Shown piece after piece: positions 1,811 through 63,639 of a stretch of 64,000 bases of DNA; positions within the stretch are counted from its first letter, which is position 1, and each line of letters opens with the position of its first letter. A program made the translations under genes and the position numbers. The stretch comes from a virus. The notes beneath the pieces are model-generated. The model made no database searches, was not told the origin of the DNA, and saw only the letters and a program-made list of their open reading frames with translations. The stretch spans positions 1 through 64,000 of the IMG/VR virus record IMGVR_UViG_3300028829_002978; one strand, 5' to 3'.

Positions 1811-2584
1811 ATGAAGAAAATAACAAAAGCGTTAAAAAATCTAGGTAGCGCAATAGCGTCAACCGGAAAAGAGGTAGCTCAAGAAGCTAGAACAACTTTA
1901 GCAGATGGTGTGGAATCATTTGTTAACAATAATAAAAGTCTAAAAGGACACAAAATGATCGAAATTATAGAAAAAGTACCGTTTAAAAATGAAAATGAAA
2001 TAGTTGTATTAGAAAAAGGTGCTAACCTTACAGTTGCAGCTGAAACTACAAAAGTAGGTTGTGGTATTGAATGGGATGAAGTAACTACAGGTGTAGACTT
2101 TGATGCAGATGTTTCTTGTTTATTAGTTAAAGAAGATACTTCTAAAAATGAACTTATCTATTATGGTACAAATAAAGTAAATGGTGAAATCGCATCTAGT
2201 TGTGGATCTGTATTACATACAGGTGATAACTTAACAGGTGCAGATGATGCAGTTGAAGGTGTTGCAGTTAATGAAGATGATGAAACTATTTATGTTGATT
2301 TAGCTAAATTACCAGCTGATGTTAAAAAAGTAGTATTCTTTGTAAATATCTATGGTGCTGAAAATAAAAAACAAAATTTTGGAACAACTGGTACAATGGG
2401 TGCTAGATTATATGATGGTGCAACTGCTCATATCTTTATGGAAGCTGATCTTATGGAAGATAATGCTACACAAACATCTATGATTATTGGTGAATTTTAC
2501 AGAAAAGATGCTGGTTTTAAATACAAAAATATGGCTCAGGGTGGTAAACAAACACTTACTGAGTTTGCAAACTCTTACAAGTAG
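1811..2584 (+). CDS. terD: TerD-family stress/tellurite-resistance protein
   Basis: 257 residues. After a Lys/Ala-rich N-terminal extension of about 50 residues comes a TerD-like beta-sandwich. The diagnostic features are the segments FDADVSCLL (around residue 97), the DNLTG motif (around 138) with following acidic calcium-binding residues, VDLAKLP, and VVFFVNIYGA. TerD proteins bind calcium and associate with the membrane protein TerC in the ter stress/phage-inhibition system. The SD GGAGGA lies upstream. TerC and TerB homologues follow on the same strand, which supports the call. The extended N-terminus is unusual for the family. Confidence 0.85.
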   Translation: MKKITKALKNLGSAIASTGKEVAQEARTTLADGVESFVNNNKSLKGHKMIEIIEKVPFKNENEIVVLEKGANLTVAAETTKVGCGIEWDEVTTGVDFDADVSCLLVKEDTSKNELIYYGTNKVNGEIASSCGSVLHTGDNLTGADDAVEGVAVNEDDETIYVDLAKLPADVKKVVFFVNIYGAENKKQNFGTTGTMGARLYDGATAHIFMEADLMEDNATQTSMIIGEFYRKDAGFKYKNMAQGGKQTLTEFANSYK

Positions 2585-2590
2585 TAATTG

Positions 2591-3568
2591 ATGAGTCCTT
2601 ACTACACATGGTCACATATAATCCTAGTACTTAGTGTACTAGGTGGGTATACTCTTGGTGGTTTCGCTGGGATGACAGCTATTATAATGTTAGCGGCTTT
2701 AGAAGTATCATTATCATTCGACAACGCGGTTGTTAATGCGAAGGTACTGAAGACAATGACACCAGCGTGGAGAAAGGCATTCATTAAATATGGTATACCA
2801 ATTGCAGTGTTTGGAATGAGATTCTTATTCCCAATCGCAATAGTTGCTATAGCTACTGGATTATCTGTAATCTCAACGTTTAATATGGCTATAGGTCAGC
2901 CAGAACTGTACCATTCAGCCTTAGAAGATAATAAGGTTGGTATCTTTGCGTTTGGTGGATCATTCCTCTTCATGGTGTTCTTAGGCTTCTTCTTCGATGA
3001 TGATAGAGAAGATAAATGGATTACTATATTAGAAGACAATACTATTACAAATAAAGTTGGATCTATTCAGCATATTGAAGTAATAATTGCGACTGCTGTG
3101 GGTATGGGATTAGTATATTATACTGATTCTACCACAGTAACTTTAGCATTCTTTGGAGGAATTTTACTCCACGAAGTTATTGGTTCATTAGATGATTTAC
3201 TGTCTACAAATGGTGTGAGATCAGGTATCGCAGGATTCTTATATCTTGAAGTATTAGATGCATCATTCTCATTTGATGGTGTAATAGGAGCATTTGCTAT
3301 ATCTAATAATATATTTGTAATTATGGTAGGTTTAGGTATTGGAGCTATGTATGTCAGATCTATGACTCTCGACTTTGTAGAAAAAGGTACCTTAGCTACT
3401 TATAGATATCTAGAACATGGAGCTCATTATGCAATTGGAGCATTAGCAATCATTATGTTTGCTAAAATGTTTCACGAAATACCAGAGTTAGTGGTTGGTT
3501 CTGTTGGAATTAGTTTAATTATTGCTGCATTTGCACATTCAATTATAGTTAATAAAAAAGAGAAGTAA
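2591..3568 (+). CDS. terC: TerC/DUF475-like integral membrane protein
   Basis: About 325 residues with eight or nine hydrophobic segments. The family signatures are ALEVSLSFDNAVVNA near residue 35 and the mirrored EVLDASFSFDGVIGAFA near 215; conserved Asp/Asn lie inside membrane helices, as in TerC and the DUF475 subgroup. TerC-type proteins are thought to move divalent metal ions or to anchor Ter complexes. ATG 2591 is chosen over TTG 2588 three bases upstream; neither has a strong SD, so coupling to terD translation is likely. The stop overlaps the next ATG by one base. Confidence 0.85.
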   Translation: MSPYYTWSHIILVLSVLGGYTLGGFAGMTAIIMLAALEVSLSFDNAVVNAKVLKTMTPAWRKAFIKYGIPIAVFGMRFLFPIAIVAIATGLSVISTFNMAIGQPELYHSALEDNKVGIFAFGGSFLFMVFLGFFFDDDREDKWITILEDNTITNKVGSIQHIEVIIATAVGMGLVYYTDSTTVTLAFFGGILLHEVIGSLDDLLSTNGVRSGIAGFLYLEVLDASFSFDGVIGAFAISNNIFVIMVGLGIGAMYVRSMTLDFVEKGTLATYRYLEHGAHYAIGALAIIMFAKMFHEIPELVVGSVGISLIIAAFAHSIIVNKKEK

Positions 3569-3759
3569 TGTTTGGTTTACTGAACGATGTTACTGATCTA
3601 ACTACAAAAGTAGCTGGAGATGTAATTGAAGTAGGTACACTTGGTTTAGTTCAATCTAAAGACGCTAAGAAATTAGCTGATCTTGGATGGGACATATATA
3701 AAATCTCGAATGAACTTAATATATCTGTTGAAGATGTTGAAAAGTTACTTAAAAAATAA
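3568..3759 (+). CDS. Small hypothetical protein in the ter cassette
   Basis: 63 residues, amphipathic. The start overlaps the terC stop (TAATG), so translation is probably coupled. The first half has Val/Thr/Gly-rich pattern; the second half (about 34-63) looks like a small helix-turn-helix ending in Leu-Leu-Lys-Lys. No family recognised. Position between terC and terB suggests an accessory part of the same module. Confidence 0.65.
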   Translation: MFGLLNDVTDLTTKVAGDVIEVGTLGLVQSKDAKKLADLGWDIYKISNELNISVEDVEKLLKK

Positions 3760-3786
3760 AGACCTCAGAGAGGCAAAGGAAACATA

Positions 3787-4230
3787 ATGTTAGGAAATTT
3801 TTTTAAAAAATTAAAAGGTGGAGCTGAAAATTTAGCTACATCAGCTTTAAGCTCAGGTGATAAAGATGTAATGGAAGCTATGGTTGCTGCTGCAGTTATC
3901 ACTGCTTATGCAGATGGAGATTGTTCAGATGATGAAGTATCTGTAATTAGTAAAATTTTAGCTACAAGTACTCAATTAGAGTCTTTTGGTGATGAACCTC
4001 TTCTATTATTTGAAGCTTATTGTAACAAGATGGAAGCATCTAAAAGAATGGGTAAAAATGAATTGATGAAAGAAATTTCAGACCTTACTGGTGATAAAAA
4101 TAATTCTGTTAGAGTTCTTATTATGGCTATTGAAGTTGCAGACGCAGATGATGATATCGATACAGATGAGATGAAAGTATTAGAAGCTATTGCTAAAACA
4201 CTTGATCTTACTTTAAGAGATTACATTTAA
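3787..4230 (+). CDS. terB: TerB-like tellurite-resistance protein
   Basis: 147 residues, all helical. TerB signatures are visible: an AAAVITAYADGDCSDDE stretch near residues 35-50, and a second acidic metal-binding site EVADADDDIDTDEM near 117-130. TerB links TerC at the membrane to cytoplasmic Ter partners and binds divalent metal. The length matches the family (about 150). It closes the operon and is followed by a strong terminator. Confidence 0.85.
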   Translation: MLGNFFKKLKGGAENLATSALSSGDKDVMEAMVAAAVITAYADGDCSDDEVSVISKILATSTQLESFGDEPLLLFEAYCNKMEASKRMGKNELMKEISDLTGDKNNSVRVLIMAIEVADADDDIDTDEMKVLEAIAKTLDLTLRDYI

Positions 4231-4974: not shown

Positions 4975-5343
4975 ATGACAATAATAAAACAATTTGAAAG
5001 ATTACTACTAATCAATCGTAGATTACATGCGTTAGATATACCAGTAGTATGTACTTTACATATAGATAGTAATAGTAGTTTTTTAGTGCTATCACATATA
5101 TATGTAGATAAGAAAGCCTTTGGTACAGGTATAAATGATTCTATTAAATCGATAGTAGAGGAAGCTATAACATTAGCTAAACCTACATACACTCAAGTTA
5201 AACAAATTTGTTTCGACATGCTGGCTACTCAATTTTATCTAGACAAAGAAGAGGTAGTAACTGTTGAATCGATTAATAGTGAAGGTGTATTATTATCAAC
5301 AGGTGAAACTGTAGAACACACTAGGTTATTTATTAAAGAATAA
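4975..5343 (+). CDS. Hypothetical protein
   Basis: 122 residues with alternating helix and strand pattern and no recognised motif. Three bases after the preceding micro-ORF, with SD AAGGA upstream. It is the last gene before the tRNA-like/structured RNA region. Confidence 0.65.
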   Translation: MTIIKQFERLLLINRRLHALDIPVVCTLHIDSNSSFLVLSHIYVDKKAFGTGINDSIKSIVEEAITLAKPTYTQVKQICFDMLATQFYLDKEEVVTVESINSEGVLLSTGETVEHTRLFIKE

Positions 5344-5356
5344 TCTAGTTAATTAT

Positions 5357-5459
5357 GGGACTGTAGCTCAGAGGTAGAGCGAATATTTAATGTATAACCT
5401 TATTAAATATGTAGGAGATTAGGTACTCTAGGTCATAGGTTCGACTCCTATCAGCCCCC
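5357..5459 (+). tRNA. tRNA-like element, anticodon not assignable
   Basis: Acceptor strands 5357-5363 and 5452-5458 pair at six of seven positions (one A/C mismatch). The D arm is canonical (GCTC 5366-5369 with GAGC 5377-5380), and so is the T arm (ATAGG 5435-5439, loop TTCGACT, CCTAT 5447-5451). The middle is abnormal: 54 bases instead of about 23, holding a perfect nine-pair hairpin (5382-5390 with 5401-5409) and a second weak hairpin (5414-5429). No normal five-pair, seven-base anticodon arm is visible. CCA is not encoded. It is either a remodelled tRNA or the tRNA-like head of a larger RNA. Confidence 0.6.
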
Positions 5460-5934
5460 TTACGACAAGTCGAGATCTCACATTAGTTTATCACTATTGA
5501 TCGACCTAAACCTTTGAGAGGTTGGCAACCTACTGCCCTTGTAAATTCTATTCAAAATATGGCAGTCATTAATAGTGACAGAAAGGAACCCTCATTTATG
5601 TATATTAAAAAGACGACTCCCTGAGTATAGACTCATAGAGGATAGTGTTCATATTTTGAGTAGAGTCTATAAGGCTCGACTGTTATACCACAGACTAAAA
5701 AGTAAGTATCTAAAAACTATTGGCGTATGATTAGATATAAGTTATTATCTTCTAAGTAAAAATTAGGGGATTAGGAGAGTGCATCATCACTCTTCTATAA
5801 TTATATATACTCCCGGAATCGGTTTAGTTAAATTAAAAGGAAGATTACCTTTTTAAATTGTTTAAAATTAACGTCCCTGCTTACGCATACAGACCCCAAG
5901 TAATTAGTATATATAATTATAGAAGGATATAAAT
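5460..5934 (+). ncRNA. Candidate large structured non-coding RNA beside the tRNA-like element
   Basis: 475 bases without a plausible gene but dense in inverted repeats. The stems are 5491-5501/5568-5578 (10 of 11), enclosing hairpins 5509-5523 and 5532-5566; 5627-5634/5663-5670 (8 of 8); 5773-5781/5788-5796 (9 pairs); and 5792-5811/5906-5925 (20 of 20). The size and the link to a tRNA recall the GOLLD and ROOL ornate phage RNAs, but no consensus can be confirmed by eye. The last stem shares bases with the preceding hairpin and covers the SD of the next gene. Confidence 0.55.
5792..5925 (+). repeat. Perfect 20-base inverted repeat
   Basis: Arms 5792-5811 and 5906-5925 are exact reverse complements and enclose 94 bases. 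The right arm ends in the AAG of the SD for the ORF at 5935. Five bases of the left arm (5792-5796) are also part of the upstream hairpin 5773-5796, so the two stems exclude each other. Confidence 0.85.
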
Positions 5935-6108
5935 ATGAAACAAACTCAAGAATTTTTAGTGTTACAAACAACAGCTATAGAGACTCAAAAGAAAATTAAA
6001 ACTTGGATATCTACAGACTACACAATAGATATTATTGCTCAGTCATCTGTAGTAACACCTAAGGGTGAAGTTATAGTAATTACGTCTCTATGGAGGAGTA
6101 AGTTATAG
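5935..6108 (+). CDS. Small hypothetical protein
   Basis: 57 residues starting MKQTQEFLV. The SD AGAAGGA sits partly inside the right arm of a 20-pair inverted repeat, so translation could be controlled by folding. The stop TAG overlaps the next GTG start by one base. No family recognised. Confidence 0.6.
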   Translation: MKQTQEFLVLQTTAIETQKKIKTWISTDYTIDIIAQSSVVTPKGEVIVITSLWRSKL

Positions 6109-62776: not shown

Positions 62777-62785
62777 AACTAATAT

Positions 62786-62803
62786 ATCAACCTTCGGGTT
62801 GGT
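62786..62803 (+). promoter_or_regulatory. Stable UUCG-type hairpin after the RNA polymerase gene
   Basis: Seven-pair stem closed by a C(TTCG)G tetraloop, ten bases after the stop codon. No T tract follows, so it may protect the 3' end of the mRNA or slow transcription. Confidence 0.6.
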
Positions 62804-63024
62804 GTAGAGGATAGAGTATAGCTTATTTATATAAGTTGTACTGTGTCTTTTGAGATATAAGCACCTAACAAGCTTTAGGTTAATTCTCAGCTGATACAAA
62901 CAAAGTACGTAAGTACACCGTAGCCATTACTTTAATGGTTAGATACGACATTTTTTAATGTTCGCATTCACTCTCTATAATAAATTATATTGGTATAAAA
63001 ATTAAAGAAAACAAAGGATTAGAA
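62804..63024 (+). other. Early intergenic region with stacked hairpins
   Basis: About 220 bases without a gene. Nested stem TGAGA/TCTCA around ACCTAA/TTAGGT (about 62850-62890), then an eight-pair hairpin with a three-base loop (62922-62929 with 62933-62940), and a TTGGTATAAA -10-like site at about 62990 ahead of the next gene. The short stem with three-base loop resembles the kind of promoter hairpin used by N4 vRNAP. Confidence 0.4.
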
Positions 63025-63333: not shown

Positions 63334-63410
63334 TGGCCTATTATATAGCATTTGATGGCACATTATGTGAAACTGTCGAGCAAGTAAGAGAGTATAACGC
63401 TGGTAGATAA

Positions 63411-63441
63411 CAAAAGTTAACTACTTAAATGCTAACTTTTG
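63411..63441 (+). promoter_or_regulatory. Nine-pair hairpin
   Basis: Perfect stem 63411-63419 with 63433-63441, 13-base loop, no T tract. Lies directly after the tiny ORF ending at 63410. Confidence 0.5.
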
Positions 63442-63639
63442 CTTGGGTGTGTAAAATACCTAAGCTTTGGTTAGATACTAACGAGTATATATTGATGCTA
63501 ACTAAGATTAATATCAATATGTACGCAAAGGAATTAAATGAGGTAATTTTAATAGATGATTTGTAAAGGAATACAGGGGAAACAATCTGGAAATCATCGT
63601 TTAAGACTATTAATTAAACTAAATATAAAAGGATAAAAT

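Follow-up and report, generated by a model that had tools for sequence, protein, structure and literature searches.

Phage tRNA genes interrupted by introns have been described in Lak megaphages, where they were called enigmatic and, to the knowledge of those authors, were the first to be reported in phages (PMC6784885). Our literature search, which covered part of the literature, found no later paper explaining phage tRNA introns. In archaea, tRNA introns lie mostly at the known site 37/38 (bulge-helix-bulge). Other structured elements of phages also bear on the locus described here. The large RNAs GOLLD and ROOL sit near tRNA islands, and GOLLD can contain tRNAs (PMC12286853). Finally, some phage mRNAs carry structured leaders that hide the ribosome-binding site.

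Of the 66,436 bases in the IMG/VR virus record (hereafter G000), the window that we analysed comprises 64,000. It carries a swollen tRNA-like gene at 5357-5459 followed by 475 nucleotides at 5460-5934. Like the Lak genes, this is a phage tRNA gene whose anticodon region contains an insert and for which no splicing machinery is known, but it does not become a canonical tRNA on excision, and the hosts and phage family differ. The element shares a size range and nearness to tRNA with GOLLD and ROOL, yet matches neither in sequence or structure. As in structured leaders, a long helix runs across the Shine-Dalgarno sequence of the next open reading frame (ORF), although here that sequence is predicted to be only partly sequestered and the arrangement is known from one genome. 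With moderate confidence, we read 5357-5459 as an insert-bearing, decayed or unrecognised tRNA of an N4-like phage and 5460-5934 as the structured leader of the gene that follows.

The tRNA-like gene at 5357-5459

The helicase, DNA polymerase and terminase of G000 have their nearest counterparts in N4-like phages, such as the Alteromonas phages PT11-V19 and R22Y (~44-58% identity), and judged by these proteins the source virus is an N4-like phage. The features in and before the tRNA-like gene are as follows.

4975-5343, plus strand: upstream ORF, 122 aa, no Pfam or PHROG match
5357-5459, plus strand: swollen tRNA-like gene (Rfam tRNA, 42.2 bits, E 1.3e-7, local search)
5357-5363, plus strand: 5' strand of the acceptor, GGGACTG, pairing with CAGCCCC at 5452-5458 (sequence and Rfam alignment)
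5366-5380, plus strand: D arm, GCTC-AGAGGTA-GAGC (Rfam alignment)
5381-5434, plus strand: expanded middle, 54 nt (sequence, inverted-repeat pairing)
5435-5451, plus strand: T arm, ATAGG-TTCGACT-CCTAT (Rfam alignment)
5452-5459, plus strand: 3' strand of the acceptor plus the C at position 73 (sequence)

The Rfam tRNA model (RF00005), which has a gathering score of 29, aligns to this gene with a 46-nt insert, and both the alignment and the sequence bear out the D arm and T arm that the initial annotation had reported. The acceptor keeps six of its seven pairs, the exception being an A.C mismatch (A4.C69). While the acceptor, D and T arms thus resemble the model, the region between them does not: the 54 nt of the middle, as against ~23 nt in a class I tRNA, open with the perfect nine-pair hairpin noted earlier (5383-5391/5402-5410), after which 5411-5434 holds a weak hairpin (TAGGAG/CTCTA) and an AGGTC variable loop of canonical look. 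We found no canonical 5-bp anticodon stem with a 7-nt loop in the gene, and ARAGORN with default settings calls no tRNA there, in agreement with the claim that a normal anticodon arm is absent. Nor is CCA encoded at the 3' end, where CTTA follows the acceptor; an encoded CCA is common in gammaproteobacterial hosts but not strictly required.

Several conventional identities were considered and set aside. With introns allowed, ARAGORN proposes a tRNA-Ile(TAT) with an 11-nt intron, a poor and unconvincing solution that leaves a 24-nt variable region. A tmRNA was found neither by ARAGORN with default settings nor among Rfam matches; low-threshold ARAGORN tmRNA hits overlap one another, and tags were not identified in them. 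No group I or group II intron model of Rfam matches 5340-5940 at E<=10. The upstream ORF stops 13 nt before the tRNA-like gene, which places the gene within an operon-like run, and the two are therefore probably co-transcribed.

We then asked whether the middle of this gene behaves as an intron under a splicing test that requires, once one block is removed, an anticodon stem of 5 bp together with U33 and a purine at position 37. No single excision from the middle gives a significant canonical arm, with 59 of 400 shuffles equalling the best score. The most natural excision, 5382-5412 (31 nt, between positions 26 and 27), leaves U33, the anticodon UAG, G37 and the AGGTC variable loop, but two of the five stem pairs fail (30:40 and 31:39). 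That remnant, together with the breadth of such genes in phages, some of which have their insert at 26/27 (as in L252), is what speaks for a working tRNA with an intron of the anticodon-arm class, whose insert would be excised and whose halves would be joined. We consider this distinctly unlikely, given the non-pairs, a best excision no better than shuffles, the absent CCA and mismatched acceptor, and the finding of no phage RNA ligase. The middle also has no conserved core in common with the recurring insert families described below. Since 5357-5459 does not resolve to a canonical tRNA, it would be either a decayed copy or the bearer of an insert of unrecognised kind; the acceptor mismatch, missing CCA and failed stem pairs make these likelier, on sequence grounds, than a working tRNA.

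Another account is that of a pseudogene without any role in processing: chance insertions would have disrupted a phage tRNA, and drift would have kept it. The mismatched acceptor, lack of CCA and lack of a canonical arm would all follow from it, but nothing disrupts the D arm, the T arm or six of the acceptor pairs, and G000 contains a second swollen tRNA, with CCA, just beyond the window at 65130-65270 (L070 1130-1274). There the anticodon arm, GGTTC-TTTTTAA-GAGCT, is that of tRNA-Lys(UUU), and ~75 nt rather than the normal 5 separate it from the T arm; ACCA is encoded. The extra block lies in the variable region, and 2 of 400 shuffles reach its score, a result largely driven by the intact arm. 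With its intact arm and its extra block in the variable region, 65130-65270 is more likely than 5357-5459 to be a functional tRNA. CTGCAA occurs in its insert, but we do not assign it the hairpin-CWGCAA core described below, as the position differs and chance is plausible.

Related phages have swollen tRNAs as well, and the fact that their inserts differ suggests a recurrent process, which again tells against the pseudogene account; we regard that account as unlikely. A scan for tRNA frames with a free middle, which gave 0 hits on reversed sequence, recovered such frames in N4-like relatives. Swollen frames in related N4-like phages lie at L011 803-952, L030 3296-3385, L177 10111-10305 and L050 817-931. 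Inspection by eye and with ARAGORN adds, from L011 and L030, a tRNA-Ile(GAU) whose variable region is large and another tRNA whose anticodon loop carries a 16-nt insert. A further swollen frame, in Alteromonas phage R22Y (L040 1393-1559, minus strand, at 38.4-38.5 kb), has a perfect 7-bp acceptor with 118 nt inside it, including a second T-arm-like hairpin.

Some other features of these genomes are worth recording. Phage-borne tellurite-resistance-like genes occupy 1811-4230 of the window; these include a TerB-like gene at 3787-4230 (Pfam TerB) and, at 2588-3568, a membrane protein by PHROG that we take to be TerC-like. The homologous helicase of one relative (G030, L208 1164-3029) has an apparent in-frame intein-like insertion, and a contig of a related N4-like phage carries a group I intron (Rfam 65 bits) at L030 13341-13584.

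The 475-nucleotide stretch at 5460-5934

The stretch that follows the tRNA-like gene has these features.

5460-5934, plus strand: gene-free structured stretch (folding z -3.58)
5537-5561, plus strand: 5' arm of a long imperfect stem, 84% complementary over 25 nt to 5650-5674
5650-5674, plus strand: 3' arm of that stem, partner of 5537-5561
5792-5811, plus strand: 5' arm of a perfect stem of 20 bp with 94 nt between its arms; no perfect inverted repeat in the genome is longer
5906-5925, plus strand: 3' arm of the 20-bp stem (inverted-repeat search)
5935-6108, plus strand: downstream ORF, 57 aa, no Pfam or PHROG match; its ribosome-binding site is at the base of the 20-bp stem

The initial annotation had described 475 gene-free bases full of long perfect stems. 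The stretch does contain only a 51-aa ORF without a Pfam match, and it folds better than shuffles, with a minimum free energy of -113.5 where shuffles average -90.9 and 0 of 100 shuffles as low. One stem is indeed long and perfect: the 20-nt repeat compares with a maximum of 14 in 200 shuffles of the region, and within the span searched only one other perfect inverted repeat of at least 12 nt occurs in the 66-kb genome. The second pair, at 84% complementarity, does not fit the description. Folding at least as strong is predicted for other gaps of G000 (63334-63639, z about -5 to -7; 62777-63024, z -5.2), and a structured gap by itself therefore marks no special RNA here. The first of these gaps begins with a short ORF that resembles the start of a HAD-type phosphatase and ends early.

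From the tRNA-like head and this tail, the initial annotation proposed a member of GOLLD or ROOL, or a new RNA class. Membership found no support: Rfam, searched with permissive filters, returned only tRNA and chance snoRNA-like scores, with no other family at E<=10, and searches of the phage's own genome with the GOLLD (RF02032) and ROOL (RF03087) models were empty, the latter run without a positive control. A single new ornate noncoding RNA of ~580 nt with a tRNA-like head, acting like GOLLD or ROOL, has some points in its favour: its size would be comparable, it has the tRNA neighbourhood familiar from GOLLD and ROOL, head and tail fold together with a z of -3.46 (5357-5934), and it would contain one very long perfect stem. 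Nevertheless, neither known RNA matches, the tail has no homologue in any set searched (34 relative loci, ~200 fetched loci and IMG/VR, by blastn, nhmmer and an IMG/VR pattern scan), other gaps of the genome are equally well folded, and the longest stem terminates on the Shine-Dalgarno sequence of the next gene. Swollen tRNAs also occur in several relatives without a tail like 5460-5934. The joining of 5357-5459 and 5460-5934 into one RNA molecule is not supported, and we judge an ornate RNA of this kind very unlikely. The observation behind the proposal is confirmed and its interpretation is supported in part; our comparisons suggest that a better lead than a single ornate RNA is the swollen middle itself, which is recurrent across phages and intron-like in many.

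The position of the 20-bp stem points instead to the downstream gene. Its 3' arm covers five of the six bases of the Shine-Dalgarno sequence AGAAGG (5921-5926) of the 57-aa ORF, which in the predicted ensemble is partly, not fully, paired (unpaired probability 0.07-0.66). We envision a scenario in which the anticodon domain of 5357-5459 was invaded or rebuilt by a structured insert, and in which tRNA end-processing enzymes could still act on its acceptor and T halves and release the gene from the transcript of the operon. Such a cut would separate the upstream mRNA from the 475-nt stretch, which would then serve as a structured 5' leader of the 57-aa ORF, its ribosome-binding site partly held in the 20-bp stem. 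Processing of the tRNA-like gene and control of the downstream gene are what we infer from this arrangement, and the leader role is drawn from a single genome. Our preferred reading, an insert-bearing tRNA followed by a leader, is weakened by the failed splicing test, the acceptor mismatch, the lack of CCA and of a common core, and the lack of an RNA ligase of the families searched.

Insert-bearing tRNA genes in other phages

Under the preferred reading, 5357-5459 would belong to a broad group of insert-bearing tRNA genes in phages, one that is poorly described. Viruses commonly carry swollen tRNA genes: a pattern of D arm and T arm with 48-78 nt between, run twice over IMG/VR, recovered at least 162 distinct swollen frames that keep the acceptor and T arm. 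Among the matches listed, 39 of 162 frames can be spliced to a canonical arm under the test applied above, as against 0.5% of shuffled middles, and the commonest cut falls after position 28, inside the anticodon stem; L252 has its insert at 26/27. The joined loops include CTTTTAA (Lys), CTGTTAA (Asn) and CTTATAA (Ile), among others. In the spliced arms each of the five stem positions changes together with its partner; these sequences were selected for pairing, and the count free of that bias is 39 of 162 among the matches listed. A search of GTDB genomes with this pattern turned up halophilic archaea, which mostly splice at the known archaeal site, 37/38; this provides a positive control for the test. 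Both archaeal introns and phage inserts are single blocks interrupting the anticodon arm, but the archaeal ones are mostly at 37/38 whereas those of phages cluster at 28/29. Bacterial contigs in GTDB splice at 28/29, several of them with a hairpin-CWGCAA core in Lachnospiraceae assemblies.

To the introns known from Lak megaphages our scans add insert families that recur at 28/29 in further phages. In one set of inserts CWGCAA comes after a hairpin; 28 of 106 long middles contain the motif, where shuffles would give 3.0, and the hairpins average 5.7 pairs, compared with 3.25. Other sets of inserts have in common GTTCCTA or a UCAnGGnnAAGGrCC core. In the latter family (L403 4654-4752, L420, L219, L370 and others) the core lies in the anticodon loop, and the splicing test speaks against a simple intron.

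Isolated phages carry these inserts too. The hairpin-CWGCAA insert is present in Serratia phage BF, Erwinia pEa_SNUABM phages, Pectobacterium CBB and Cronobacter GAP32, in genes annotated as tRNA-Lys, tRNA-Phe or tRNA-OTHER. Once spliced in silico, the tRNA-Lys of Serratia phage BF aligns over the junction with the intron-free tRNA-Lys of Pseudomonas phage PaBG at 88.9%. In KVP40, we read the gene annotated as tRNA-Pseudo-3 as a tRNA-Asn(GUU) carrying an insert of 41 nt, whose removal is predicted to join ACG to TGCCTGTTAA; a match is present in 49 Vibrio phage records. Annotation tools drop such genes or, as in KVP40, file them as pseudo-tRNAs.

The 28/29 excision pattern fits introns of the Lak "enigmatic" kind, as far as sequence can tell. 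In the clear members of the set, the insert is most readily understood as an intron, a single block often at 28/29, whose removal in silico leaves a perfect arm and a canonical loop; that introns are removed at all is our inference. It is possible, and we suggest it tentatively, that these genes form an undescribed phage class of ~40-50 nt anticodon-stem introns, mostly at 28/29 and with a few conserved cores, of which 5357-5459 would be a divergent N4-like member. If the pattern does reflect splicing, phages would have a tRNA splicing route positionally distinct from that of archaea, and phage RNA ligases a possible job in sealing a nick within a double-stranded stem. T4 RNA ligase 2 joins such nicks in vitro. 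Of 19 genomes selected because they have insert-bearing tRNAs, most of them from jumbo phages and some with inserts other than the hairpin-CWGCAA type, 15 encode an RNA ligase (PF09414 or PF09511), and no ligase (PF09414, PF01139, PF09511) was found in G000 and the closest relatives examined; we do not rely on the association, since genome size confounds it and it does not extend to the clade of the window. Since isolated laboratory phages carry the 28/29 pattern, splicing is directly testable.

Further examples may be useful for comparison. Intron-like blocks at 28/29 are found at IMG/VR loci including L399 905-1025, L430 5763-5882, L382 2477-2590 and L279 2906-3017 (KVP40), and many genes of this type have the hairpin-CWGCAA core. 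A conserved 70-nt middle (GCCCGACGCTCGGGAGGTCGGCAATGCC...) is common to L269, L276, L232 and L313. Bacteroidota contigs L459, L504, L527 and L564 have an insert family of the form AATTACC...GGTCAA...TTTACTTC, several members of which interrupt the anticodon stem at 28/29.
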